This document shows positions 43,701-57,263 of a stretch of 64,000 bases of DNA, in pieces. Within the stretch, counting starts at the first letter, position 1, and every line of letters begins with the position of its first letter. The notes below the pieces were generated by a model that worked only from the letters and a program-made list of their open reading frames with translations, was not told the DNA's origin and ran no database searches. A program made the translations under genes and the position numbers. The stretch lies in contig JODI01000013.1 of the NCBI GenBank assembly GCA_000720805.1, positions 62,001 to 126,000 on the forward strand, read 5' to 3'. The DNA comes from Streptomyces violaceoruber (GTDB lineage: Bacteria; Actinomycetota; Actinomycetes; Streptomycetales; Streptomycetaceae).

Positions 43701-44744
43701 TCAGCGCGGCGCGCTCGTGCGGATGATCAGCTCTGGCTCGAGCACGACGGTGACGTGCCGGTGCTGCTCGCCCGAGGCCACCTCGTCCATCAGCAGCCGC
43801 ATCGCTTCCTGCCCCATCGCCCGCCCGGGCAGGTCCACCGCGGTCAGGGGCACCGCCGCGGAACCGGCCGTGCGGTTGTTCTCGCACCCGACGACCGCGA
43901 CCTGGTCGGGTACCCCGACTCCCGCCACCGTGTGCAGTTCGTGGATGATGCCGTTGGCCAGCTCGTCGGCGACGACGACGAGACCGTCCGGCAGGTCGCC
44001 GGGCTTCCGCCGGGCGAGGTCCTTGCCGACCAGGTGCCCGTGCGCCGTGGTCAGTCCTGCGCTGTCGATCTCCTCCAGCGTCACGCCGGCGCCGGCTTCC
44101 TCAACCGCCGCGCGCACCCCCCTGCGCCGGTCGCGCACCGGCTGGTAGTCGTCGTGCGCGACGACGTACGCCAGCCTGGTGCGTCCGGTGTCGATGAGGT
44201 GACGCGCCGCGAGATACCCGACGTGCTCGTTGTTGACCAGCACGGAGCAGCACGTGCCCGGTTTGGGCGCGAAGTTGAGCAGCACGATCTGGCGTCCGTG
44301 CGAGCGCATCCGGGCGATGCCGGCGGTGGAGTCCTCCATCGGGGCCAGCAGCACGCCGGTGACGCGAGCCTCGTCGAAGAGATCCAGGTACTCGTCCTGG
44401 AGCCCCATGTCACACGTGGTGTTCGCGAGCAGCAGGTTGAGTCCGGCCGCGCGGGCCGCCTGCTGTGCGCCGTGCGCCATGTCGATGAACAGCGAGTTCT
44501 CGATGTCGGCCAGCACCATCCCGACGCTGTCGTTCGACCCGGACGCCAGCGACCGGGCGGCGTCATTGCGCACGAAACCCAACCGGGAGATGGCGTCGCG
44601 CACGCGCTGCGCCGTCACCGGGCTCACTTTGGCCGGATGGTTCAGCACGTTGGAAACGGTGCCGAGCGAGACGCCCGCCGCCTTCGCGACGTCCTGCATG
44701 CTCGGACCGGCGTGTCCGTTTGCTCGTGGACCTGCGGCTGCCAC
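43701..44744 (-). CDS. LacI family transcriptional regulator
   Basis: 347 residues. N-terminal helix-turn-helix MQDVAKAAGVSLGTVSNVLNHPAKVSPVTAQRVRDAISRLGFVRNDAARSL with the LacI hinge, then a periplasmic-binding-protein-like sensor domain (DSVGMVLADIENSLFIDMAHGAQQAA, and the C-terminal VPLTAVDLPGRAMGQEA). GTG at 44744 with GGAG four bases upstream; the very long N-terminal open frame contains the operator and is not coding. Three matching palindromes in the locus are its probable binding sites, including one before its own gene. Confidence 0.93.
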   Translation of the reverse strand: MAAAGPRANGHAGPSMQDVAKAAGVSLGTVSNVLNHPAKVSPVTAQRVRDAISRLGFVRNDAARSLASGSNDSVGMVLADIENSLFIDMAHGAQQAARAAGLNLLLANTTCDMGLQDEYLDLFDEARVTGVLLAPMEDSTAGIARMRSHGRQIVLLNFAPKPGTCCSVLVNNEHVGYLAARHLIDTGRTRLAYVVAHDDYQPVRDRRRGVRAAVEEAGAGVTLEEIDSAGLTTAHGHLVGKDLARRKPGDLPDGLVVVADELANGIIHELHTVAGVGVPDQVAVVGCENNRTAGSAAVPLTAVDLPGRAMGQEAMRLLMDEVASGEQHRHVTVVLEPELIIRTSAPR

Positions 44745-44832
44745 GACGCTCCTCGACTCCGGTCTCGTTCGGCCTGGACACGACGTTGACGCGGCCAGGA
44801 TGGGGTGGACAGGCGCAGGATACATGCTCCCG

Positions 44833-44846
44833 TTAAAGCGCTCCAA
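44833..44846. promoter_or_regulatory. LacI-type operator, copy 2
   Basis: TTAAAGCGCTCCAA, matching the palindrome of copy 1 at 12 of 14 positions with the GCGC core intact. Lies about 90 bp before the LacI start codon, consistent with weaker autoregulation. Confidence 0.7.
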
Positions 44847-45075
44847 TGCTTCTGCGGAGCCACACCCTCCCGGCCTGCGGGCGGGGGCACGGACACCGAG
44901 GTCACGACACTGCTTCCTGGATGCCCATGCGGGCCTCCGGATGCTCCCGAGGTCACCTGCCACCCGAAGCCCTCCGGGGAAACACCGCCAGGCGCACCCG
45001 GTTCCGCCTGCCAAATGACTGCGCGGGCCCTTGACGGGCGGCGCGGAGGGTGTCAGCCTCGCACCGCTGAATGGA

Positions 45076-45089
45076 TTGAAGCGCATCAA
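45076..45089. promoter_or_regulatory. LacI-type operator, copy 3
   Basis: TTGAAGCGCATCAA, 13 of 14 positions identical to copy 1, about 180 bp before the secreted GH93-like gene. Flanked by A and T, extending the symmetry to 16 bp (ATTGAA...TCAAT). Confidence 0.75.
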
Positions 45090-45265
45090 TCCTCGTCCCC
45101 CACCGTCCCCCGCCTTCGCCCTCCGCATCCCCACCCCTCGCATCACCCAGCGAGCGATGACGTCCCGGCGCCGCGTCCGGCCGTGGTTCGACCTGACCAG
45201 CTGCCGTTCTTCTCCCACTGCCCGTCTCACCGCCCGTCTCTCACCGTCGAGGGAGTCACCCGACC

Positions 45266-47266
45266 ATGCACAGGAACAGACGATCGTGGGCGAAGACCGC
45301 CGCCATCGGCGCGGTGGCCGCCCTGGCGCCCTTCGCGATACCGGCCATGTCCGCCCACGCGGTCACCTACAACGGCGGTGTCATGTGGCAGCCCCCGAGC
45401 GGGGCGCCCTCCTACGGCTCGCTCTACACGCACGCGATCCGGCTCCAGCACAGCACCGACTCCAACGGCACCCTGCTGGCCTCCTTCGAGCAGTACTCCG
45501 GAAACGGCATGCCGGTGTACCGCAGCACCGACTCGGGGCGCACCTGGACGCAGATCTCCACGATCCACGACCAGGTCAACTCCTGGAACAACATCCAGCT
45601 CGAACCCGTGCTGTACGAGCTTCCGCAGGCGGTCGGCTCACTTCCGGCCGGCACGATCCTCGCGGCGGGTGACTCCATCCCCACCGACAACTCCAAGACC
45701 AAGATCGACATGTACGCCAGCACCGATCACGGAGTGACCTGGAGCTTCGTCAGCTCCATCGCCACCGGCGGAGACGCCGTCGCTTCCAACGGGCACACTC
45801 CCGTGTGGGAACCGTTCTTCCTCGTGGCGAACAACAAGCTCATCGCCTACATCTCGGACCAGCGGGACCCCGCGCATGGTCAGAAGCTCGCCCACTTCAC
45901 CAGCACGGACGGTGTCAACTGGTCCTCCGAGGTTGACGACGTCACGTACCCGGCCTACGCCGCTCGGCCGGGAATGGCGATCGTCGCCCGGCTCGGCAAC
46001 GGGAAATACATCCTCACCTATGAGTACTGCGGTGCCCCCAGCGGCGGCTGCCCCGTCTACTTCAAGATCGCCGACGACCCGGAGAACTTCGGCTCGGCCA
46101 CCGGAGTACAGCTCATCACCACGGACAACAGAAAGCCGGACGGTGACCCGTACGTCACCTGGCTCCCCACCGGCGGCCCGAACGGAACAATCGTCGTGCA
46201 GGCCTACAGCGACCAGCAGCTGTACGAGAGCACCGACAACGGCGCGACCTGGGTGCGGATGTTCTCCAACACCATCCAGGGTTACAGCCGCGGCCTGCTC
46301 CCCCTCGCCGACGGCAAGAGCCTCCTGGTCACCCGCGGCGGCGCGCTCGTCACGAACGGCACGAACAAGGTGACCTACGGCATCGATGATTACGGCGGCG
46401 GCATCTCGACCGGGGCCACCTACAAGGTCCAGAACGCGCTGAGTTCCGACGTCCTGGGCGTCCCCAGCTCCACCTCAGGAGCCCAGGTCGTCCAGGCGAA
46501 CGACAACGGGACCCCCGACCACAACTGGCAGTTCCAGCTCCAGAGCAACGGCTACTACCGCGTCTACAACACCTTCAGCCAGAAGTACCTGGCCATCCCC
46601 AGCGGCTCGCTGTCCTCCGGAACGGGCGCCATCCAGTGGACGGCGACGGGCGGCGCGGAGCAGGACTGGTCGGTCCAGCCGTCACCGGCCGGCGGATACA
46701 CCGTCGTCAACCGGCGAAGCAACCTGGCACTGACCATGGCGACCGACGCGAACGGCCAGACCTCGATCAACGAGCAGGTCACCCAGGCGCCGCTGACGTC
46801 CTCGTCGAACCAGCGATGGAACCTGGTCCAGACGGCGGCTCCGGACTTCACCGCCGGACAGTTCGTCATGACCAACGTCAACAGTGGAAAGTACGCGGAG
46901 ACGGTCGGAAGCGGCGACGGAACACAGGCCGACCAGTACCGCAACGTGAACCACCCGGATCAGTACTGGACCTTCACGCAGACCGGCTCCTACTACACGA
47001 TCACGAACGCCTCCTCTGGCGACCTCCTCGACTCGGCGGGGGCCACCGCCGGCGGCAGCGCGGTCGTCCAGAAGCCGGCGTCCGGCGGAACGTCCCAGCA
47101 GTGGTCTCTGGTCGACACCGGAGCCGGCAGGTACCAGGTGGTCAACCGTGCCAGCGGACTGGCGCTGTCCGTGACCAACGCATCGACCGGCGACGGAGCC
47201 CTTCTGGACCAGGAATCCACCTCGACGGCGTCCGCACAGCGGTGGACGATCACGAAGATCAACTAG
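45266..47266 (+). CDS. Secreted sialidase-fold (GH93-like exo-arabinanase) with two ricin-type lectin domains
   Basis: 666 residues. Sec signal (AKTAAIGAVAALAPFAIPAMSAHA). Residues about 33-380 form a six-bladed sialidase-like propeller with Asp-box motifs STDSGRTW, STDHGVTW, STDGVNW and STDNGATW; gene context and GLLPLADGKSLLVTRGG fit GH93 exo-alpha-L-1,5-arabinanase better than a sialidase, and no Arg triad of sialidases was evident. Two trefoil lectin units follow (about 390-525 and 535-666) with QxW-type repeats (DHNWQFQ, EQDWSVQ, NQRWNLV, DQYWTFT, QQWSLV, AQRWTITK), likely binding plant polysaccharide. An operator of the LacI regulator lies upstream. Substrate by inference only. Confidence 0.85.
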   Translation: MHRNRRSWAKTAAIGAVAALAPFAIPAMSAHAVTYNGGVMWQPPSGAPSYGSLYTHAIRLQHSTDSNGTLLASFEQYSGNGMPVYRSTDSGRTWTQISTIHDQVNSWNNIQLEPVLYELPQAVGSLPAGTILAAGDSIPTDNSKTKIDMYASTDHGVTWSFVSSIATGGDAVASNGHTPVWEPFFLVANNKLIAYISDQRDPAHGQKLAHFTSTDGVNWSSEVDDVTYPAYAARPGMAIVARLGNGKYILTYEYCGAPSGGCPVYFKIADDPENFGSATGVQLITTDNRKPDGDPYVTWLPTGGPNGTIVVQAYSDQQLYESTDNGATWVRMFSNTIQGYSRGLLPLADGKSLLVTRGGALVTNGTNKVTYGIDDYGGGISTGATYKVQNALSSDVLGVPSSTSGAQVVQANDNGTPDHNWQFQLQSNGYYRVYNTFSQKYLAIPSGSLSSGTGAIQWTATGGAEQDWSVQPSPAGGYTVVNRRSNLALTMATDANGQTSINEQVTQAPLTSSSNQRWNLVQTAAPDFTAGQFVMTNVNSGKYAETVGSGDGTQADQYRNVNHPDQYWTFTQTGSYYTITNASSGDLLDSAGATAGGSAVVQKPASGGTSQQWSLVDTGAGRYQVVNRASGLALSVTNASTGDGALLDQESTSTASAQRWTITKIN

Positions 47267-47565
47267 TCGCGCGCTTGCACACATCGGGATGGCCGGCCAA
47301 GGCGCCTCACCGCACAAGCGCCCGCCGGCACCTCCGCCGCTCACACGAGCCGGTCGCGCGACCAGCATCCAGGCCCTCCGACCCCGGCACCGCCCATCCC
47401 CAGACGACGGGCCCGCAAGCGGGCCGTACCAGGCGGCGGACCACCACGAGCCCGGGACCGGGAGCCGAGGACCGAGAGCCGAGCACAGACCACTGACCAC
47501 TGACCACTGACCGCCGACCACGCGTTCCCACGCACCCGCACCTCAGCCACACAAAGGAATTCCGT
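47267..47565. other. Intergenic with short direct repeats
   Basis: 299 bp between two secreted glycosidase genes on the plus strand. ACCACTG is repeated three times at 47489-47509. The downstream gene has an AAAGGA site just before its start. No LacI-type palindrome was seen, so the GH43 gene may be read through from the upstream gene. Confidence 0.5.
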
Positions 47566-48996
47566 ATGACCACTCAACGCAGGGAAGGCTCACGCCCCGC
47601 GATCTGCAGACGGCGCGTCCATCCCGCCCTCGCCGCACTCCTGGCCGCCGCGCTGACCGTTCTCGGCCTGGTCACCGCCGGCCAGGCGCACGCACTCAGC
47701 GGGGACACGCGGATGCACGACCCCTCGGTCATCAAGGTGGGCAGCTGCTACTACGGCTTCTCCACCGGGTTCGAGCACGACTCGCTCAACCCGAGCGGTT
47801 CCATCACCGAACGCAGGACGTGTGACAGCACGGCGGCGACCGGCTGGACCAAAATCGGCAACGTGTGGAACTCCACGCCGTCCTGGATCACGGCCAGGCT
47901 CGGTTCCACACCGCCCAACATCTGGGCACCGGACATCAAGTACTTCAACGGCAAGTACCACCTGTACTACGCCGGTTCGCTCTGGGGCACCTCGTACGCC
48001 GTCATGGGCCTCGCCACCGCCACGAACATCGAAGGCCCCTGGACCGACCAGGGCATGGTCACGGACGTCAACTACCCGATCGACCCCAACGTCGACTGGG
48101 GGCCGGACGGCCGGCTGTACGTCTCCTGGGGTTCCTGGACCGGCTCCGGCACCTACATGCATGTCCTGGACCAGTCCACGGGCAAGCTGTCCACGACCGA
48201 CAACAACCTCTGGCACATCGCCGTCGGCATCGAGAACCCGACGATCGTCCTCAACGGCGGCTCCTACTACCTCTTCGGGTCGAAGGGCACCTGCTGCAGC
48301 GGGGTCAACAGCACCTACTACACCGTGGTCGGACGGTCGACCAGCATCACCGGCCCCTACCTCGACCAGAACGGCGTGGACATGGCCTCCGGCGGAGGGA
48401 CCCCCGTGCTCGCCGGCGCCTACCCGAAGGTGGCGGCCGGGGGTGCGGACGCCTACGACGACGGCACGTCGAAGTTCCTCGCCTACCACTACTACGACGG
48501 GAACAACAACGGGCAGGAGACGCTCGACATCCGCCAGGTCACCTTCGCCAACGGATGGCCCGTCCTTGCGCCCCCGCTGGGCTCCGCCAACAACCACCTG
48601 CTGAACCGCAACAGCGGCAAGTGCGCCGACGTCTGGTACGCCAGCACCGCCGACGGGGCAGCCGTGAACTCCGGGAACTGCAACTCCGGAACCAACCAGC
48701 AGTGGGTGCTCACCCCCGCCGGATCCAACTACCAGCTGGTCAACGTCAACAGCGGAAAATGCCTGGAAATCCCCGGCGCCTCCACCGCCGACGGCGCCGC
48801 GGCCGATCAGGCGACCTGCAACGGCGGCACACATCAGCTCTGGACGAAGAGTCCGGTCATCGGAGGCTACGTCACCTTCACCAACGCCAACAGCGGCCGA
48901 TGCCTCGAAGTCGCCGGAGCGTCGACGGCCAACGGAGCGGCCCTGGACCAGTCGACCTGCGCCTCCGGGACGAACCAACAGTGGCTGGTCGTCTGA
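47566..48996 (+). CDS. Secreted GH43 arabinan endo-1,5-alpha-L-arabinosidase with ricin-type domain
   Basis: 476 residues. Signal segment LAALLAAALTVLGLVTAGQAHA. The GH43 five-bladed propeller begins TRMHDPSVIKVG (base Asp), then PPNIWAPDIKYFNGKYHLYYAGS, PIDPNVDWGPDGRLYVSWG (pKa-modulating Asp) and GIENPTIVLNGG (acid Glu), the arrangement of endo-arabinanases. Residues about 345-476 are a CBM13 trefoil with NQQWVLT, HQLWTK and NQQWLVV. AAAGGA lies eight bases upstream of ATG. It would cut arabinan side chains of pectin outside the cell, in keeping with the neighbouring exo-enzyme and rhamnosidase. Confidence 0.92.
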   Translation: MTTQRREGSRPAICRRRVHPALAALLAAALTVLGLVTAGQAHALSGDTRMHDPSVIKVGSCYYGFSTGFEHDSLNPSGSITERRTCDSTAATGWTKIGNVWNSTPSWITARLGSTPPNIWAPDIKYFNGKYHLYYAGSLWGTSYAVMGLATATNIEGPWTDQGMVTDVNYPIDPNVDWGPDGRLYVSWGSWTGSGTYMHVLDQSTGKLSTTDNNLWHIAVGIENPTIVLNGGSYYLFGSKGTCCSGVNSTYYTVVGRSTSITGPYLDQNGVDMASGGGTPVLAGAYPKVAAGGADAYDDGTSKFLAYHYYDGNNNGQETLDIRQVTFANGWPVLAPPLGSANNHLLNRNSGKCADVWYASTADGAAVNSGNCNSGTNQQWVLTPAGSNYQLVNVNSGKCLEIPGASTADGAAADQATCNGGTHQLWTKSPVIGGYVTFTNANSGRCLEVAGASTANGAALDQSTCASGTNQQWLVV

Positions 48997-49095
48997 GACG
49001 AGTGAGCCGCCCTCGTCGGGCACCCGGACCGCTTCCCGTCGAGGGCCCCCGGCCGGCTCGGGCACCACGAGGCCTGATGATCGATTCCAAGGGGT

Positions 49096-49161
49096 TCAGT
49101 GGTCGTAGACGGTCAGTGCGCGCATGACCGGCTGTCCGCGCATGAACCTGTCTCCACTCAT
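49096..49161 (-). CDS. Possible 21-residue peptide (MSGDRF...)
   Basis: A short frame starting MSGDRFMRGQ and ending LTVYDH, with AGGGGGA four bases before the ATG. It fills the hairpin element exactly, from inside one arm to the other, and is divergent from the methyltransferase. A frame with the same first codons (MSGARF) begins at 50093 in the copy on the far side. Whether it is translated is unknown; it could be a leader peptide, a precursor peptide or a truncated gene start. Confidence 0.35.
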   Translation of the reverse strand: MSGDRFMRGQPVMRALTVYDH

Positions 49162-49183
49162 CAATCCCCCTTGGAATCGATCA
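49144..49183 (-). repeat. 40-bp inverted repeat flanking the methyltransferase gene, left copy
   Basis: Read on the minus strand it begins TGATCGATTCCAAGGGGGA and ends CAGGTTC. It matches 50071-50110 on the plus strand at 37 of 40 positions. Each copy points away from the methyltransferase gene and contains a ribosome-binding site and ATG-AGT-GGA. Confidence 0.85.
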
Positions 49184-49185
49184 TC

Positions 49186-49191
49186 TAGGCT
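49186..49191 (+). promoter_or_regulatory. Putative -10 element for leaderless methyltransferase mRNA
   Basis: TAGGCT, then six bases, then the GTG start of the methyltransferase gene. No ribosome-binding site lies in between, so a leaderless transcript starting at the GTG is likely. The hairpin arm ends immediately upstream, so the -35 region lies inside the repeat. Confidence 0.45.
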
Positions 49192-49197
49192 GGCGCG

Positions 49198-50049
49198 GTG
49201 ACTGGTGAGCGGGAGCGCGTGCAGCCGTCGGGGGTGTGGGCCACCGCGGTGGGGGTGGCCCGGGTGCGGGCGCTGGAGACCGAGCGGGAGAACGCGCTGT
49301 TCCGCGACCCACTGGCACAGGCCTTCGCCACTGCCGGCGGCTTGTGGCCCTCCTCGCCGTCGCTGCCTGATGACGAGGTCGCGCGACGCCGCCGGCTGGC
49401 CGTGTCGTTCTCCATCGTCATCAGGACGAAGTTCCTCGACGACCTGTTGCAGCAGGCCTCCGCGTCCGGGGTCCGGCAGGTCGTGCTGCTCGGCGCCGGC
49501 ATGGACAGCCGGGCCTTCCGGATGGACTGGCCCGAGGGCACCCGGCTGTTCGAGGTCGACACCGCCGCGCCACTGGACTTCAAGGCTTCGGTGCTGCGCC
49601 AGGAGCGGGCCGTCGCACGCTGCGAGCGGATCACCGTCGAGGTGGATCTGCGTGAGGACTGGCCAGGCGCGCTGGCCGCCGCAGGGCACGACCCGGCCGT
49701 GCCGACCGTGTGGATTGCCGAAGGACTGCTGATCTATCTGCCCGAGGACGCGGTGGAGCTGCTGCTGGCCCGGATCAGCGCGCTGTCGGCGGCAGGCAGC
49801 CGGATGGGGCTGACGTTGGGCTCGCGCGGCGTGATCGAGCGCTTCGGCGCGGACGCCGTGCCGGGATCGGCGGCGTCCATGTGGGTCTCGGAGATGCCGG
49901 ACGACCCGGTGGGCTGGCTGGCCGGGCACGGCTGGGAGGCCGACAGCCACACCCTGCGCGAGCGCGCTGCCGCCTACGGCCGCCCGATCAGCACCCCGCC
50001 GCAGCGCGAGGAGCGGCCCGGCGGACTGATCTCGGCGGTCCGCCGGTAG
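49198..50049 (+). CDS. SAM-dependent methyltransferase, TIGR00027/leucine-carboxyl-methyltransferase type
   Basis: 283 residues. ALETERENALFRDPLAQAFA near the N-terminus, SAM-binding VVLLGAGMDSRAFRMDWPEGTRLFEVDTAAPLDFKASVL, and VWIAEGLLIYLPEDAVELLLARI are the family signatures, known from many mycobacterial and Streptomyces methyltransferases of unknown substrate (O-methylation is usual). GTG start at 49198 with a -10-like TAGGCT six bases before. The gene is bracketed by 40-bp inverted repeats. No biosynthetic partner lies nearby. Confidence 0.9.
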   Translation: MTGERERVQPSGVWATAVGVARVRALETERENALFRDPLAQAFATAGGLWPSSPSLPDDEVARRRRLAVSFSIVIRTKFLDDLLQQASASGVRQVVLLGAGMDSRAFRMDWPEGTRLFEVDTAAPLDFKASVLRQERAVARCERITVEVDLREDWPGALAAAGHDPAVPTVWIAEGLLIYLPEDAVELLLARISALSAAGSRMGLTLGSRGVIERFGADAVPGSAASMWVSEMPDDPVGWLAGHGWEADSHTLRERAAAYGRPISTPPQREERPGGLISAVRR

Positions 50050-50070
50050 AGCGCCTCCCGGTTCCATGGG

Positions 50071-50110
50071 TGATCGATTCCCAGGGGGACTGATGAGTGG
50101 AGCCAGGTTC
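50071..50110 (+). repeat. 40-bp inverted repeat flanking the methyltransferase gene, right copy
   Basis: Begins TGATCGATTCCCAGGGGGA and ends CAGGTTC, 21 bp after the methyltransferase stop. It carries AGGGGGA, then an ATG at 50093 opening MSGARFCRRL. That frame continues to 50485 but beyond about 40 codons it is composition-driven and overlaps the next gene, so I do not call it a gene. Confidence 0.85.
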
Positions 50111-50318
50111 TGCCGTCGGCTGCGTCCCCGGGGACCGTGCGGGGCGTGTCCGGGCGGGCTGCCCCAGCTACCGCCCCGCTTGCGCACCACAGCCGGCCAC
50201 CCAAGGCTGGACGTGAAGGGTGCACCGGGCGGTCCCACGGTGCCGTCCGGCCGGCCTCAGCCACCACTCGTTCCCGAGTGTCACCTTCCTCTCAGGGGCG
50301 ACGAGGAGGTGCAGTCCC

Positions 50319-50906
50319 ATGGGCAAGGCGAGGCAGTGGCGGTGGCGGTGGCGGTGGCGGTGGCGGAGCAATCCGTTGCGCCGGCGCACGGACGTCGTCG
50401 AGGCCTGGATCGTGCTGGCCGTCTGGACGGTCATCGCGCTGGGCGGCACTCTCGTCGGCCTGGCGACGGCCCACGCGGCCGATGAGTCCTTCGCGCTGCT
50501 GCGGCGCGAGCGCCACTCGGTACCGGCCGTCCTCGCGGAGAGCACGTCCGGAGCGGTGCCGACGGGGGAAGGTACGGCATCGGGGCAGGTCCGGGCGAAA
50601 GTCCGCTGGTCCGCTTCGGACGGTGCCACCCGTACCGGCCGGGCCATGGTGGACTCCGGTCGCAGCGCCGGATCGAAGGTAGTGGTCTGGATGAACGGCC
50701 AGGGGCAGCTCACCGAAGAGCCGCCCGCCGAGGGTGCGGCGGCCGCCGAGGCGGCCCTGCTCGGCATCGGGGCCGCGCTCGCCTTCTCGGGTCTGACGTT
50801 CGCCGTCGGCCGCTTCGCACTGTGGCGCCTCGACCAGGGGCGTTACGACCAATGGAGCCGTGAGTGGGACACCGTCGGACCGCAGTGGGGGCGTAAGGGC
50901 ACATGA
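50319..50906 (+). CDS. Rv1733c-like two-helix membrane protein
   Basis: 195 residues. A basic N-terminus with a WRWRWRWRWR run, then SNPLRRRTDVVEAWIVLAVWTVIALGGTLVGLATAHA (NPLRR and helix one), an external domain with VRAKVRWSASDGATRTGRA and SAGSKVVVWMNGQGQL, and helix two (EAALLGIGAALAFSGLTFAV) followed by RYDQWSREWDTVGPQWG; this matches the Rv1733c family of actinobacterial membrane proteins. The WR run comes from five GGCGGT-type hexanucleotide repeats (50337-50368), a site prone to slippage. GAGGAGG lies eleven bases before ATG 50319. Confidence 0.88.
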   Translation: MGKARQWRWRWRWRWRSNPLRRRTDVVEAWIVLAVWTVIALGGTLVGLATAHAADESFALLRRERHSVPAVLAESTSGAVPTGEGTASGQVRAKVRWSASDGATRTGRAMVDSGRSAGSKVVVWMNGQGQLTEEPPAEGAAAAEAALLGIGAALAFSGLTFAVGRFALWRLDQGRYDQWSREWDTVGPQWGRKGT

Positions 50907-51029
50907 CGAAGCACGGGCGTTCAGAAGAAGCTCAGAACTTGCTGTGCAAAGCTGACGCGCCCCACCGGTCGGCACGGACAGACCGTGCGAGCACCGGCTC
51001 TCCACGGCCGCCTTCTGGAGGAACACCCG

Positions 51030-51566
51030 ATGAGCCTCACCGTCGTCAACGGTCTGCCGGCGCACGTCCTCTTCGTGCACTTCGTCATCGTGCTCGTTCC
51101 CCTGAGCGCACTGGCGCTCGTGGTCGGCGCGATCTGGCCGAGTGCCGCCCGTCGCATGGGCGTGGTGCTGCCGCTGATGGCCCTGGTGACGCTGGCGAGC
51201 GTGCCTCTGGCCACGCATGCCGGCGAGTGGCTGGAGGAGCACGTCGGCAGCACCGCCCTGGTGCGCAGGCACGCCGAACTCGGTGACGGGTTGCTCCCCT
51301 GGGCCGTGGGCCTGTTCCTGTTGGCGACGGCGGTCTGGTGGACGACCCGCAGGTCGGCCGCGGCGCAGGCCGCCCCCGGGGGACGGACCCGGTCCACCTC
51401 GTCCCGGTCGGCGGTGGTCGTCCGCGTCGCGGCGGCGGTGCTGTCCGTCGGGGTGGCCGCGGGTGCCGTCGTGGACGTGTACAGGATCGGCGACTCCGGG
51501 GCGAAGGCCGCCTGGCAGGGCAGCTTCTCCAAGACCGCCACGGGCGACGGAGGTGACAACGGCTGA
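51030..51566 (+). CDS. DUF2231-like four-helix membrane protein
   Basis: 178 residues. MSLTVVNGLPAHVLFVHFVIVLVPLSALALVVGAIWP, with the paired His characteristic of DUF2231, then helices VVLPLMALVTLASVPLA, LLPWAVGLFLLATAVWW and VVVRVAAAVLSVGVAAGAVVDVYRIG; GEWLEEHVG and a His in RRHAELGD lie between. The conserved His residues may bind haem or metal, as proposed for relatives. GGAGGA lies eight bases before ATG 51030. Same strand as, and 123 bp after, the Rv1733c-like gene. Confidence 0.85.
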   Translation: MSLTVVNGLPAHVLFVHFVIVLVPLSALALVVGAIWPSAARRMGVVLPLMALVTLASVPLATHAGEWLEEHVGSTALVRRHAELGDGLLPWAVGLFLLATAVWWTTRRSAAAQAAPGGRTRSTSSRSAVVVRVAAAVLSVGVAAGAVVDVYRIGDSGAKAAWQGSFSKTATGDGGDNG

Positions 51567-51678
51567 CGCGGGCAGCTCGGTAGGTGGAGCGGAGAGAGCG
51601 CGGCCGGCGGGGTCGTGTCCCGCGTAGGCCGGAGAAACCTGCTCGGCCGCGCAGAAACAGGGCGCGGAGGTCACCGGG

Positions 51679-52731
51679 CTACTGATCCTGGGGTTGTTCA
51701 GGCGTTTGCACGTGCTCGGTGTCGCACGCGTCCACGGCCCCCTGAGGTGGCGGTTTCCGGTCGGCGATCGCCTCGCGAAGGCGGCGTCGCGCGGTGGCGG
51801 AGGCGCCCGCCGTGAGGAGTGCCTCGGTCACCGCCCCCACCACCGGGGGTACGTCGAGCACGCGGGGCCGGGCCAGCGGGGCCTCGGCGGCCAGCCGCGC
51901 CTGGATGTGGTCCCGGAGCAGCACCTGACCGTTCTGCAGGGTTCCCCCGCCGAGTACGACCGGCGTCGGGGTGCGCAGGAGGCGGAGCCGGCGCAGCAGC
52001 GCGGTCACCATGGCGACGATCTCGTCGCCGAGCCGTATCACGATGCCCCGCGCCACGGCGTCGCCGCTCGCTGCGGTCGCGAAGACCAAGGGTGCCAGTC
52101 CGTGCAGGGCCGGGACCGGTATCTCGCCGCCGCTGACGGCCAGCGCGACGGATTCCACGCTGGCCAGGCCGAAGTGGGCAGGAAGGTCCCGCCTCAGCCG
52201 GGTCGCCGGGCCCCGTCCGTCGCCCGCGCGGACCGCGGCACCCAGTCCGGCCCGTGCCACGGCGAGCCCGCCGCCCCAGTCCCCCGTGATGTCGCCGAGG
52301 GAGAGGAAGCGGGCCTGACGGCCCTCGGGGTGGACCGCGGCCGCGTTGATGCCGGCGCCGGACACCACCGCGACGCCCCAGCCGTCCGGCGCCCCGGCCC
52401 GCAGAACGGCGAGCGTGTCATTGCGTACGACAGCCCGCTCGGCCACACCCAGCCGCGTCAACTGCCGTAGCGCCGACCGCTCCTGGGCCCGCCGGTCCAC
52501 ATTGGCGAGGAAGTACGCGCCGACCGCGACCGGGGTCGGGTGCGCGAGGCCGGCCTCCGCCAGTGCCCGCCGGCCCAGGTGGGCGAGCCGTTCGGCCGTG
52601 ACCTCCATCCCGTCGGTGTGCGGGCGGGTGCCCTCCCCGCGTGCCCAGGCCAGCAACCGTCCCTCGGTGTCCGCGAGGACGAGGTCGGTCTTGGAGTTTC
52701 CGCCGTCGACGCCCACCACGAGGTCAGGCAT
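51679..52731 (-). CDS. BadF/BadG-type sugar kinase (N-acetylglucosamine kinase-like)
   Basis: 350 residues of the ASKHA fold: LVVGVDGGNSKTDLVLADTEGRLLA (phosphate 1), VVRNDTLAVLRAG, GVAVVSGAGINAAA (phosphate 2), SLGDITGDWGGGLAVAR and a C-terminal TPVVLGGGTLQNG adenosine motif, as in GlcNAc kinases. It would phosphorylate the imported sugar in the cytosol. Overlaps the GH4 gene by eight bases, last gene of the ROK-controlled operon. A C-terminal extension of about 30 residues is polar and probably disordered. Confidence 0.88.
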   Translation of the reverse strand: MPDLVVGVDGGNSKTDLVLADTEGRLLAWARGEGTRPHTDGMEVTAERLAHLGRRALAEAGLAHPTPVAVGAYFLANVDRRAQERSALRQLTRLGVAERAVVRNDTLAVLRAGAPDGWGVAVVSGAGINAAAVHPEGRQARFLSLGDITGDWGGGLAVARAGLGAAVRAGDGRGPATRLRRDLPAHFGLASVESVALAVSGGEIPVPALHGLAPLVFATAASGDAVARGIVIRLGDEIVAMVTALLRRLRLLRTPTPVVLGGGTLQNGQVLLRDHIQARLAAEAPLARPRVLDVPPVVGAVTEALLTAGASATARRRLREAIADRKPPPQGAVDACDTEHVQTPEQPQDQ

Positions 52732-54007
52732 CGACGGCCTCGCCTGCGAAGAACCGGGGCAGATGGCGGCGGTTGGCCGCCAACAGCGCGTTCAGGAGTG
52801 CGTCCGCCCGGTCCCATTCGCGTACGAGGGGATTGGCCACGAGGGCGCGCCGGGCCACCGCCCGGTCCCCCGTCAGGGCGGCTTCGACGGTGAGGGTCTC
52901 GTACGCGGTGACCGACTGGACGAGCCCGAGCATCTCCGGCGGCAGGGCAGGTACCGGTTCCGGGTGCGGTCCGGCGGTGTCGACCTGTGCCGGTACCTCG
53001 ACGACGGCGTCGTCCGGCAGGCCCGCCAGGACGCCGTCGTTGCGCACGTTCACGTAGTGGTGCGCGCCGTCGCCGGTGAGCAGGCTGGTGACCAGGGCGG
53101 CCGCGGCCTCGCTGTAGTACGCCCCGCCTCTGCGGTCCAGCAGTTCGGGTTTGCGGTCCAGCGCGGGGTCCGTGTAGAGGGTGAGCAACTCCCTCTCGAT
53201 GGCCATGACTTGGTCCGCCCGGTGGGTCCCGGACTGCTGGCTGCGGACCTCGTCGTCGGTGCAGTAGAAGTAGTGCAGGTAGTACGAGGGGATGGCCCCG
53301 AGGTCGCGCAGCGCACCGGCCGGGACACGCACCTGCGCGGCGAGTTCGTCGAGCGCGTCGCCGGTCAGCAGCTCCGGCAGGCGGTCCACTCCGTCCACGG
53401 TGACCGAGCGGATCCAGGACAGGTGGTTGAGGCCCGCGTGGCCGAGCCGTACCCGGTCGGGGTCGGCGCCGAGCCGGGCGGCCAGCTGCCGCTGGAACTT
53501 GATCGCCACGTTGCACAGACCGACGGCGCGGTGGCCGGCGTCCAGCAGTGCGCGGGTGACGATGCCGACCGGGTTGGTGAAGTCCACGATCCACGCGCCG
53601 GGCAGGGATCTGCGGCGTACCTCCGCGGCGATGTCGAGCACCACCGGGACCGTGCGCAGCGCCTTCGCGAAGCCACCGGGCCCGGTGGTCTCCTGGCCGA
53701 GCAGGCCGAACTCGTTCGGCAGGGTCTCGTCCACCAGCCGGGCCGCCTGGCCGCCCACGCGCAGTTGGATCAGCACCGCGGCCGCTCCGTCCAGCGCGGG
53801 ACCGAGGTCGGTCGTGGTGGTCAGCCGGCCCCGGAATCCGTGCCGGTCGAGGATGCGGCGGGACAGGCCGCCGACCACGGCCAGGCGTTCGGCGTCGATG
53901 TCCTGCAGGACGAGTTCGTCGACCGGCAGCAGCTGGGCACGCCGGGCGAAGCCCTCGATCAGTTCGGGCGTGTACGTACTGCCACCGCCGACAACGGTGA
54001 TCTTCAC
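52724..54007 (-). CDS. GH4 glycosidase (6-phospho-beta-glucosidase-like)
   Basis: 427 residues. NAD-binding KITVVGGGSTYTPEL at the start, DIDAERL after strand 2, DFTNPVGIVTRALL, metal ligands Cys in VGLCNVAIKFQ and His in AGLNHLSWI, and SYYLHYFY around the catalytic Tyr: the GH4 set with redox-assisted cleavage needing NAD+ and Mn2+. Most beta-type relatives read CNVPI; here the Pro is Ala. GTG at 54007 after GGGAG is chosen; a TTG four codons earlier is open. A sugar kinase gene follows, so kinase and GH4 may act in sequence. Confidence 0.9.
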   Translation of the reverse strand: MKITVVGGGSTYTPELIEGFARRAQLLPVDELVLQDIDAERLAVVGGLSRRILDRHGFRGRLTTTTDLGPALDGAAAVLIQLRVGGQAARLVDETLPNEFGLLGQETTGPGGFAKALRTVPVVLDIAAEVRRRSLPGAWIVDFTNPVGIVTRALLDAGHRAVGLCNVAIKFQRQLAARLGADPDRVRLGHAGLNHLSWIRSVTVDGVDRLPELLTGDALDELAAQVRVPAGALRDLGAIPSYYLHYFYCTDDEVRSQQSGTHRADQVMAIERELLTLYTDPALDRKPELLDRRGGAYYSEAAAALVTSLLTGDGAHHYVNVRNDGVLAGLPDDAVVEVPAQVDTAGPHPEPVPALPPEMLGLVQSVTAYETLTVEAALTGDRAVARRALVANPLVREWDRADALLNALLAANRRHLPRFFAGEAVDA

Positions 54008-54055
54008 TCGTGCTCCCAAGGCTGTGTGTGGGGGGCGCTGCGGGTGTGTGGGGCC

Positions 54056-54919
54056 TCAGCCCTTGACGCCGGTCAGCGCGATACCCTCGACGAAGACCTT
54101 CTGCGCCAGGAAGAACAGCACCAGGACGGGCAGCAGGAACATCAGCGAGGCCGCCATCTGCAGCTGGTAGGCGTTCTGGTGCCCGTTCTTGGCGAGCTGG
54201 CTGAGGGCCACCGCGAGGGTCTGGCCGGTGTCGCTGTTCCCGGTGTAGAGCAGCGGGTTGTAGAAGTCGTTCCACGCGTACAGGAACGCGAAGAGGCCCA
54301 CGGCGGCGATCGCCGGCCTGGTCATGGGGACCAGGACCCGCAGCAGGATGCGCAGCTCCCCCGCGCCGTCCATCCGGGCGGCCTCGGTGAACTCGTCGGG
54401 GATGGTGAGGAAGAACTGGCGCAGCAGGAAGATGCTGAACGCGTCGCCGAAGAACGTGGGGACGATGAGCGGTTTGAGGGTTCCCACCCAGCCGATGTGC
54501 GAGTACATCACGTACAGAGGCAGGCTGGTGACCTGGGCGGGGATCATCATCGCGGCCAGTACGACCATGAAGACGGCCTCGCGGCCCCGCCACCGCAGCC
54601 GGGCCAGCGCGTAGGCGACCGGCACCGAGGAGATGACGACGCCGATCGTGGACAGCCCGGCGTACAGCATCGTGTTGGCCAGGTCGCGGCCGAACGGCAT
54701 GGCAGAGAAGACCTCCCGGAAGTTGCCGAACTCCCAGGGTGAGGGCCACAGCGAGCCGGTACCGGCCTGGTGCTGGGTCATGAACGCGGTGAGGACGCAG
54801 ATCGTCAGCGGCAGCAGGAAGCAGAGGGCGACCGCGACGGCGGGCGCGTGCTCGGCCAGCAGGTACAACAGACGGCGCTTGAGCGGACGTTGATGCTTCG
54901 TCAGGTCCAGTGTGCTCAT
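54056..54919 (-). CDS. Carbohydrate ABC transporter permease (MalG type)
   Basis: 287 residues, six helices. EAA loop DEFTEAARMDGAGELRILLRVLVPMTRPA. AAMMIPAQVTSLPLYVMYSHIGW and the C-terminal QKVFVEGIALTGVKG are typical. The ATG overlaps the stop of the other permease gene (ATGA). No dedicated ATPase gene, as in the rhamnosidase locus. Confidence 0.94.
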   Translation of the reverse strand: MSTLDLTKHQRPLKRRLLYLLAEHAPAVAVALCFLLPLTICVLTAFMTQHQAGTGSLWPSPWEFGNFREVFSAMPFGRDLANTMLYAGLSTIGVVISSVPVAYALARLRWRGREAVFMVVLAAMMIPAQVTSLPLYVMYSHIGWVGTLKPLIVPTFFGDAFSIFLLRQFFLTIPDEFTEAARMDGAGELRILLRVLVPMTRPAIAAVGLFAFLYAWNDFYNPLLYTGNSDTGQTLAVALSQLAKNGHQNAYQLQMAASLMFLLPVLVLFFLAQKVFVEGIALTGVKG

Positions 54920-55920
54920 CGGCCACCGCCCGCGTGGTGTACGAAGCGGCGCGAGGCGCGGATGAACACCACGGTCGCCGCGAAGATGACCAGGAACAGC
55001 AGCCAGGCCATGGCCGAGGCGTATCCGGTCTTGAAGTAGGAGAAGCCCTGCCGGTACAGCTCCGTCGAGTAGAACAGCAGGGAGTTGCCGGGATAGCCGA
55101 TCAGGTCGTTGCTGGACGACGTGGCGTTGGCCGAGCTGGAGGCGACGAACGCCTCGGTGAAGTACTGGAAGGTGTAGATCATCCCGGTGAGCAGGGCGAA
55201 GAAGATGACGGGGGAGATCGCCGGCAGGGTGATGCTCCGGAACTTCTGCAGGGCGTTCGCGCCGTCGAGTTCGGCGGCCTCGTACAACTCGCGTGGTACG
55301 TCGAGCATGGCGGCGGAGAAGATGACCATCACGTTGCCGCTGGCCCACAGCGCCATCAGGACGAGGCTGGGCTTGGACCAGGCGGGGTCGGCGAACCATC
55401 CCGGGCCGGTCACGCCCACCAGGTCCAGCAGCCGGTTGAGCGGTCCGACCGGGTTGAGCAGCACGATGAAGGACAGGGCGGCGGCCACCACCGGCACCAT
55501 GGACGGCAGGAAGAACAGGGTGCGGTACACGGCCCTGCCGCGCTTGACGCGGATGATCACCCAGGCGGTGAGCATGGCCCAGCCGGTGCGCAGCGGCACC
55601 ATGACGACGACCATCCACACGGTGTTCCGCACCGCCACCCAGAAGGTGTCCGACTGGCTGAACAGGGCGCGGTAGTTGCGCAGTCCGACGAACTGGACCG
55701 GCCGGTACGAGCCGGCCTGGAAGTCGGTGAGCGAGTAGTACAGCGTGGCGCTCACCGGGTACAGCACGAAGACGGCGAACCCGATGACGAACGGGGACAG
55801 GAAGCCGAGTACGACCCACCAGCGGGCCCTGCTCGGACGGCGCCGGGAACCCCGGGCGGGACGCGTGCGCGTCCCGCCCGGGGCGTCGCCGACGGGGGCG
55901 ACCACGGTCGTCATCGTCAC
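54916..55920 (-). CDS. Carbohydrate ABC transporter permease (MalF type)
   Basis: 334 residues. A basic N-terminal stretch rich in Arg and Pro, then VVLGFLSPFVIGFAVFVLYPVSATLYYSLTDF and five more helices; EAA loop RELYEAAELDGANALQKFRSITLPAISP. GTG start overlaps the stop of the binding-protein gene (GTGA). FQYFTEAFVASSSANATSSSND is a longer Ser/Asn loop than usual. Confidence 0.94.
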   Translation of the reverse strand: MTMTTVVAPVGDAPGGTRTRPARGSRRRPSRARWWVVLGFLSPFVIGFAVFVLYPVSATLYYSLTDFQAGSYRPVQFVGLRNYRALFSQSDTFWVAVRNTVWMVVVMVPLRTGWAMLTAWVIIRVKRGRAVYRTLFFLPSMVPVVAAALSFIVLLNPVGPLNRLLDLVGVTGPGWFADPAWSKPSLVLMALWASGNVMVIFSAAMLDVPRELYEAAELDGANALQKFRSITLPAISPVIFFALLTGMIYTFQYFTEAFVASSSANATSSSNDLIGYPGNSLLFYSTELYRQGFSYFKTGYASAMAWLLFLVIFAATVVFIRASRRFVHHAGGGR

Positions 55921-57263
55921 TGCCCGCTCTCGGAGTTGAGAGAGTCGATCTTCTTCCCGACGGCGGCGAGTCCGGCGGCGGCGTCCTTGACCTTGCCCTG
56001 CTCGTACTCGAGCAGGAACGCGCGCCAGGTGTCCATGTCCTCGACGCCCGCCGGGGTGAGCGTCTTGTAGGAGGAGTCCGGGTTCTGGAAGATGTCGACG
56101 AACGGCTTCCAGTGCGGGTCCTTGGCCTTGTCCCAGGCCTTCAGCGCGGCGAACGTGGTGGGGATGTTGTAGACAGTGTCGGCGAGGGTGTTGAGGAAGG
56201 TGGTGTCGGTGGTGAGCTGCTGGAGTGCGAAGAAGGCCTCCTGCTTGTGCTGCGAGCCGGCCGACAGATAGGCGACGGTGCCGAGGGTGCTGCCCGCGCC
56301 GTACGTCCCCGACGATCCGTCGAGCACCGGCATCGGGACGACGCCGTAGTCGAAGTCCTTCTTCTCGGAGGCGATCTCACCGACGTGCCACTCACCGTCG
56401 AACTCCATGGCCGCGGCACCGGTCAGCAGCGGGTTGCCCGCGTCGTCGGCGTGCGGCTGGTAGCGGCCGACGAACTTCTGCACGTTCGCCTTGCCGTAGT
56501 AGTCGATGAGGTCCTGGTCCCACTTCAGCAGCTGCTGCCACTTGGGGTCGGAGGCGAAGGTCGTCTTGCCGTCCTTGCCGTAGAAGTCGCTGCCGCTGTG
56601 CGCTCCGGTGAAGGCGTACCGGTTGACGTCGAAGTCGGAGCGGGGCACGAAGCCGAAGGTCTTGATGGAGCCGTCCGCGTTCTTCACGGTGAGTTTCTTC
56701 GCGGCGGCGGTCAGCTCGGCGAGCGTCCTGGGCGGCTTGAGGCCGGCCGCGTCGAACATCTTCTTGTTGTAGTAGAGGGCGAACGCGTCGGTCAGCAGCG
56801 GCAGCGCGCACTGCTTGCTCTGGTAGCGGGTGTAGACGAGGGTCGCGGGCGGGAACGTCTTGGCCGTGTCCACACCGGCCGAGGACAGGTACGGCTTCAG
56901 GTCGGCGACCGTGCCGTTGTAGCAGAACTTGGCCACGTTGTCGGGCGTGGAGCTGATGAACACGTCGGGCGGGTTGCCCGCGGCGACCGCCTTGGCGTAG
57001 GCGGCGTCGTCCTTGTTGGGCACGAAGTTGACGGTCAGCCACGGGTACTTGGTGTGCAGTTGGCCCAGCGTCGCCTTGAAGGCGGCGACCTCGTTGGGGA
57101 GGTGGTTGAACGTCCAGACGGTGACGGTGGTGGGCTTGTGTGACGCGCCCGCCGAGATGGCGGTATCGGGTTCCGACGACGTGGGCCCGGTGGACGTACA
57201 GCCGGCCAGCAGCAGTACGCCGGCGGCCGTGACGGCCGCGGCCCCGGTGATAGATTTGAACAC
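55917..57263 (-). CDS. Carbohydrate ABC transporter substrate-binding lipoprotein
   Basis: 448 residues. Lipobox LLLAGC (ITGAAAVTAAGVLLLAGCTST). SBP_bac_1 features: TVWTFNHLPNEVAAFKATLGQL, NPPDVFISSTPDNVAKF, LTDAFALYYNKKMFDAAGLKPPRTLAELTAAAKKL, and GAAAMEFDGEWHVGEI. GTG start with GAGGAAGG nine bases before. It lies 126 bp after the ROK gene and heads the transport genes. Confidence 0.94.
   Translation of the reverse strand: MFKSITGAAAVTAAGVLLLAGCTSTGPTSSEPDTAISAGASHKPTTVTVWTFNHLPNEVAAFKATLGQLHTKYPWLTVNFVPNKDDAAYAKAVAAGNPPDVFISSTPDNVAKFCYNGTVADLKPYLSSAGVDTAKTFPPATLVYTRYQSKQCALPLLTDAFALYYNKKMFDAAGLKPPRTLAELTAAAKKLTVKNADGSIKTFGFVPRSDFDVNRYAFTGAHSGSDFYGKDGKTTFASDPKWQQLLKWDQDLIDYYGKANVQKFVGRYQPHADDAGNPLLTGAAAMEFDGEWHVGEIASEKKDFDYGVVPMPVLDGSSGTYGAGSTLGTVAYLSAGSQHKQEAFFALQQLTTDTTFLNTLADTVYNIPTTFAALKAWDKAKDPHWKPFVDIFQNPDSSYKTLTPAGVEDMDTWRAFLLEYEQGKVKDAAAGLAAVGKKIDSLNSESGQ

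Follow-up and report, generated by a model that had tools for sequence, protein, structure and literature searches.

Layout of the locus

What kind of locus is formed by a methyltransferase gene that lies between two inverted 40-bp repeats, each with an ATG facing outward? The question is raised by a 64,000-nucleotide stretch of Streptomyces violaceoruber DNA (the window), for which the initial annotation offered two readings: a mobile methyltransferase cassette lacking a transposase of its own, or a methyltransferase with paired small-peptide genes. An inverted-repeat search recovered the two 40-nt copies as annotated, 37 of 40 positions (93%) being complementary and 887 nt separating them, and both ATGs do face away from the methyltransferase, in a minus-strand frame on the left and a plus-strand frame on the right (Table 1). 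In a search of the 10.5-Mb genome each copy retrieved its partner at E=1e-8, so the repeat is not due to chance, and this partner is the only full-length match to each copy in its own genome. The left copy was also described as one arm of a hairpin with 18-bp perfect arms around a 21-codon frame. Hairpin and frame are real, but the perfect arms (100% complementary, 72 nt apart) are 19 nt long. The 18-bp arm is present in three copies at the locus, while elsewhere in the genome it has matches only with two or three mismatches, the two 2-mismatch matches lying on contigs C57 and C77.

An outward MSG(D/A)RF peptide frame had been proposed for each repeat. Both ATGs exist, but only the left one (ATG 49161-49159, stop 49098-49096) opens a frame of 21 codons. 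The right copy is truncated at 50110 and its frame consequently runs on into flanking DNA; the locus therefore has one 21-codon frame, not two. Between the units that contain the repeats, the methyltransferase is the sole recognised coding sequence and no transposase was found by open reading frames and profile searches. No target-site duplication was seen at the window locus, no Rfam match was obtained at E up to 1 within positions 44000-56000, no tRNA was found in the window, and a scan for consensus promoters and terminators returned no site. Adjoining the cassette, positions 45266-48996 encode two carbohydrate-active proteins that both have ricin-type lectin domains; one contains BNR-like repeats and the other is GH43 arabinanase-like. 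GGTGGC repeats at 50332-50366, close to where the Rv1733c-family gene starts, give rise to an alternating Arg-Trp run.

Table 1. Coordinates of the features of the methyltransferase locus in the window
Feature	Position	Strand	Basis
Left IS982-derived unit, complete, 110 bp	49076..49185	-	19-bp perfect arms and 3' IS982-family match
Left unit, outer terminal repeat	49076-49094		Perfect arm
Left unit, transposase 3' remnant including outer terminal repeat	49076-49138		IS982-family match
Left unit, inner arm	49167-49185		Perfect arm
Left 40-bp repeat, inner part of left unit	49144..49183	-	
21-codon frame MSGDRFMRGQPVMRALTVYDH with stop, transposase C-terminal remnant and not a peptide gene	49096..49161	-	L123 tail and absent coding constraint
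TAGGCT, -10-like, possible leaderless promoter	49186..49191	+	Position kept in 76 of 88 loci
Class I SAM-dependent methyltransferase, 283 aa, TIGR00027 / PF04072	49198..50049	+	Profile score and purifying selection
Right unit, truncated: inner arm and 5' part only	50071..50110	+	Outer terminal repeat and transposase remnant absent
Right MSGARF frame, 130 codons into flanking DNA	50093..50485	+	Overlaps Rv1733c-family gene in another frame

Origin of the end unit

The outer 63 bp of the unit (unit bases 48-110) match the 3' ends of IS982-family elements, with 92% DNA identity to L123, and consist of the transposase tail and terminal repeat of such an element. Unlike these elements, the cassette has no transposase body and holds the methyltransferase between two units. 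The best match to the tail comes from the transposase gene of L123. This gene is itself frameshifted further upstream, and its C-terminal segment ends in HTGQPVMRALTAYDH before the stop codon. The consensus peptide tail GQPVMRALTAYDH is identical to the end of this segment, and the window peptide shows a single difference from it, V for A. The peptide frame is thus a transposase gene end preceded by a fortuitously in-frame ATG.

The half of the unit with the peptide C-terminus occurs in many genomes apart from the methyltransferase. Forty stretches matching the unit were retrieved, six of which are methyltransferase loci (L141, L185-L187, L202 and L203). Among the 34 without methyltransferase, 32 contain an IS982-type transposase in part or whole, and no transposase was found in the retrieved stretches of L124 and L126, which match the outer half. 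The transposase of L134 scores 167.3 bits against the IS982-family profile NF033520 (cut-off 130), and the terminal repeats of this element differ from the arm at 3 and 4 of 17 positions. Four IS982-type elements (L127, L134, L135 and L129) measure 992-1000 bp between like terminal repeats; the remaining elements fall below or above this range. The 5' half of the unit was found solely beside methyltransferase sequence and in no IS982 element among the stretches examined. In the window's own draft genome (350 contigs) no complete IS982 transposase of the matching type was found, only two C-terminal matches.

A longer IS982-type form, with about 1.5-1.8 kb between its terminal repeats compared with about 1.0 kb, was observed in L123, L188, L189, L192, L193, L194, L196 and L200. 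The extra sequence lies upstream of the transposase and in L123 is a repetitive coding-like stretch, perhaps a passenger gene. We had also considered the 18-bp arm as a regulatory site and dropped this idea, IS982 elements bearing the same ends.

The methyltransferase gene

The methyltransferase scores 277.1 bits with TIGR00027, above the cut-off of 93.55. Relatives of known structure in this family are ML2640 (2CKD) and Rv0731c (6ID6), with a family match over about 195 query residues; the window enzyme belongs to a mobile Streptomyces clade. We sampled 88 loci, namely the best 80 of 205 relatives by protein similarity (91-97% identity), seven further loci and the window, having dropped L096, L097 and L100-L103, whose flanks are identical to others, and L107-L111, which are partial or divergent. 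An open reading frame is present in 86 of the 88 copies, in a sample that, being chosen by protein similarity, is tilted towards intact genes; L107, L110, L111, L208 and L209 are broken copies. The two failures are L033 and L069. In L069 the only stop lies at codon 284 and there is one extra base, and this case may be a boundary effect. The 66 copies without gaps show 691 distinct changes, of which 389 are synonymous, compared with 212 +/- 12 expected, and by this pattern of substitutions the gene is under strong purifying selection. The window gene is open and probably encodes a working enzyme.

TAGGCT occurs within 25 nt upstream of the gene in 78 of the 88 loci, at an identical position in 76 and with far more variable sequence above it; in the window, 6 nt separate it from the GTG start. 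The remaining ten loci have some TANNNT upstream, which could easily be chance. A sigma-70 scan returned no promoter site; the conserved hexamer fits a possible leaderless promoter.

Distribution across genomes and sites

In searches for the unit and for the methyltransferase, two candidates were scored per genome. The methyltransferase was detected in 88 of 392 genomes of the genus at E <= 1e-100 (the window's own counted), in five of them at only 71-82% identity, and not in G236, the one same-species genome searched. The 82 sampled loci with enough flank fall into 67 context clusters, a count lowered by one seven-member cluster that a shared ISL3 region holds together, and one that host synteny too diverged for detection would raise. 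Copies L018 and L025, one from Streptomyces and one from Kitasatospora, share 98% DNA identity. A search for the repeat beside such genes, as proposed in the initial annotation, located the unit at 91 of the 176 flanks (55 left, 36 right) of the 88 loci, which include the best 80 of 205.

The proposed search for an empty site did not succeed. In G236 alignment of the right flank begins at 50159 and the left neighbour differs, so that this genome offers no clean empty site for the window locus. Among 100 relatives, searched at E up to 1e-15 with the scoring of three candidates in each genome, none showed the two flanks together with the cassette missing.

A conserved neighbourhood of the methyltransferase recurs in L015, L037, L047, L086 and L095. 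In L015, L037 and L086 the methyltransferase lies between two genes named by eye as a PadR-type regulator and PhzF-like, and several of the five have a repeat of the type CTTCAGTGGCAATCGGTCAAGG near the methyltransferase. A different left-flank type is common to L016, L017, L034, L042, L077 and L085. Genome G359 has two equal-scoring copies in opposite orientation, one near the contig start (C1:60376) and one at 8.85 Mb (C1:8851155), perhaps corresponding to the terminal inverted repeats of a linear chromosome.

Complete copies of the cassette

Two loci, L146 and L149, carry the full unit on both sides of the gene and, outer arms included, are 1103 bp long. Both have IS982-type terminal inverted repeats at their two outer ends, whereas the window copy lacks the right outer end. 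An IS982 transposase supplied in trans would be likely to act on the outer repeats of L146 and L149. The 967-bp segment suggested earlier is probably not the transposing unit, given that the 40-bp repeats are inner arms and the complete copies are longer. Complete units have their own inverted ends, often bounded by CTAG; this motif at the element ends is palindromic, and an end is therefore indistinguishable from a target duplication. In L018 an IS4-family transposase lies 3' of the methyltransferase gene, and the flanking repeat in L021 and L082 resembles that beside the L018 gene.

Alternative explanations

We consider it highly probable that the window locus is a decayed, transposase-less mobile insertion cassette derived from an IS982-family element and carrying a TIGR00027 methyltransferase, with putative mobilisation in trans. 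The complete cassette would consist of the gene between inverted end units derived from an IS982-family insertion sequence, each ordered as terminal repeat, short 5' piece, last transposase codons and terminal repeat. An IS982 transposase would have moved it in trans via the outer repeats, and ISL3 elements would also have come to carry it. This explanation draws on the homology of the outer half, the two complete copies, the scatter over sites, the ISL3-bounded copies with duplications described below, and opposite selection on a constrained gene and an unconstrained peptide frame. Several results count against it: the window locus yielded neither an empty site nor a target duplication, its draft genome yielded no complete transposase of the matching type, the unit's 5' half was seen in no IS982 element, the L123 gene with the best tail match is frameshifted, L124 and L126 showed no transposase, and the ISL3-bounded L026 and L092 have no target duplication. 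The transposase-less cassette of the initial annotation is well supported.

The other annotated reading, in which paired small-peptide genes encode precursor or leader peptides modified by the methyltransferase or regulating it, appears very improbable, even though a purine-rich stretch precedes the ATG in both window copies and 25 of the 52 units covering the whole frame retain a start and have neither gaps nor an internal stop. An ATG or GTG is kept in 38 of these 52 units and lost in 14, and nine are frameshifted. In the gap-free units, 39 of 180 changes are synonymous versus 36.3 +/- 4.9 expected by random placement, counts that are not independent events and refer to a majority-type unit set by hand; the suggested check for a coding pattern thus ends at chance level. 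The frame coincides with a transposase tail, the right window frame has no stop at 21 codons, and with the unit at fewer than all flanks many gene copies lack one or both. Conservation of translation signals rather than ends, taken earlier as a sign of duplicated gene starts, also fails, since the terminal arm is the least divergent part of the unit (6.1%) and the peptide frame differs by 8.6-10%; it is the ends that are conserved. Judged by its sequence, the frame is a transposase remnant under no coding constraint and not a peptide gene, and what looked like a pair of small-peptide genes consists of transposase scraps at a locus bracketed by leftover transposable-element ends. Two independent MITEs beside a gene that spreads by other means would account for the free-standing, miniature-element look of each complete unit, with its own inverted and often CTAG-bounded ends. 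We find this improbable, as the unit 5' half is present in 27 of 30 loci retrieved by the unit search and methyltransferase sequence accompanies it in all 27, while the other three hold the outer half only, from base 48-52 on. Loci L185-L187, L202 and L203 and the gene remnants L208 and L209 agree with the pairing of unit and methyltransferase, and no solo unit was seen among the loci examined, weak matches having been examined in part.

ISL3-family elements could instead be the main carrier, with the IS982-derived units as passive baggage. ISL3-type ends were detected in 19 of 123 scanned sequences and at 16 of the 88 sampled loci. In L026 (2639 bp) ISL3-type ends enclose the cassette together with an adjoining ISL3 transposase gene, which is interrupted, and about 290 bp or more of the right flank of L026 is common to eight loci (L019, L025, L029, L046, L050, L051, L075 and L090). 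Exact 8-bp target duplications, TCGGTGCG and CTTCCACG, are present in two of four examined ISL3-bounded elements, L035 (1300 bp) and L104 (1061 bp), and none was found in L026 and L092 (1068 bp). These ends and duplications suggest that the cassette has also moved between ISL3-type ends. However, a scan that allowed up to 7 mismatches found no ISL3-type end in 72 of the 88 loci, the window included, nor where the two complete double-unit copies lie (scanned as L034 and L094), and we regard ISL3 as main carrier as rather unlikely; it overlaps with the IS982-derived cassette that we prefer, and the two probabilities do not add up to one. Tentative, and less likely than not, is the idea that a single TIGR00027 methyltransferase is a promiscuous passenger of Streptomyces insertion sequences (IS982-derived units, ISL3 and perhaps other families, given the IS4-type transposase of L018 and the related repeat in L021 and L082), retained by selection because many hosts benefit from it as soon as it arrives.

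Comparison with known systems and implications

Non-autonomous, gene-carrying derivatives of insertion sequences are called mobile insertion cassettes in PMC3129680 and PMC5444012, and passenger-carrying insertion sequences are mentioned in PMC3129680. The qnrS2 cassette (MIC/MICE) of Aeromonas plasmid pAC3, as described in PMC5444012, is an internal-deletion derivative of an insertion sequence with a passenger between inverted repeats and no transposase, an organization that the methyltransferase cassette resembles. Compared with that account, our cassette ends in double-armed units with a transposase tail, its passenger is a methyltransferase, its hosts are Streptomyces and kin, and the window copy lacks one outer end. 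The complete form thus has the parts of a mobile insertion cassette and putatively works like one, with doubled ends and an unusual passenger. The ISL3 elements with passengers offer a further likeness through the L026 cassette beside its transposase gene and the duplications of L035 and L104, a likeness that does not extend to the window copy, which has no ISL3-type end. No publication on the methyltransferase cassette was among the matches listed, though one may exist.

The lead of twin peptide genes falls away, the frames being transposase ends. With its right outer repeat lost, the window copy is probably immobile as a whole, probably a stranded relic in which only the methyltransferase still matters. 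This gene is carried by about a fifth of the sampled genus, at many unrelated sites and mostly intact. Its combination of mobility and constraint makes it a good accessory-function candidate.
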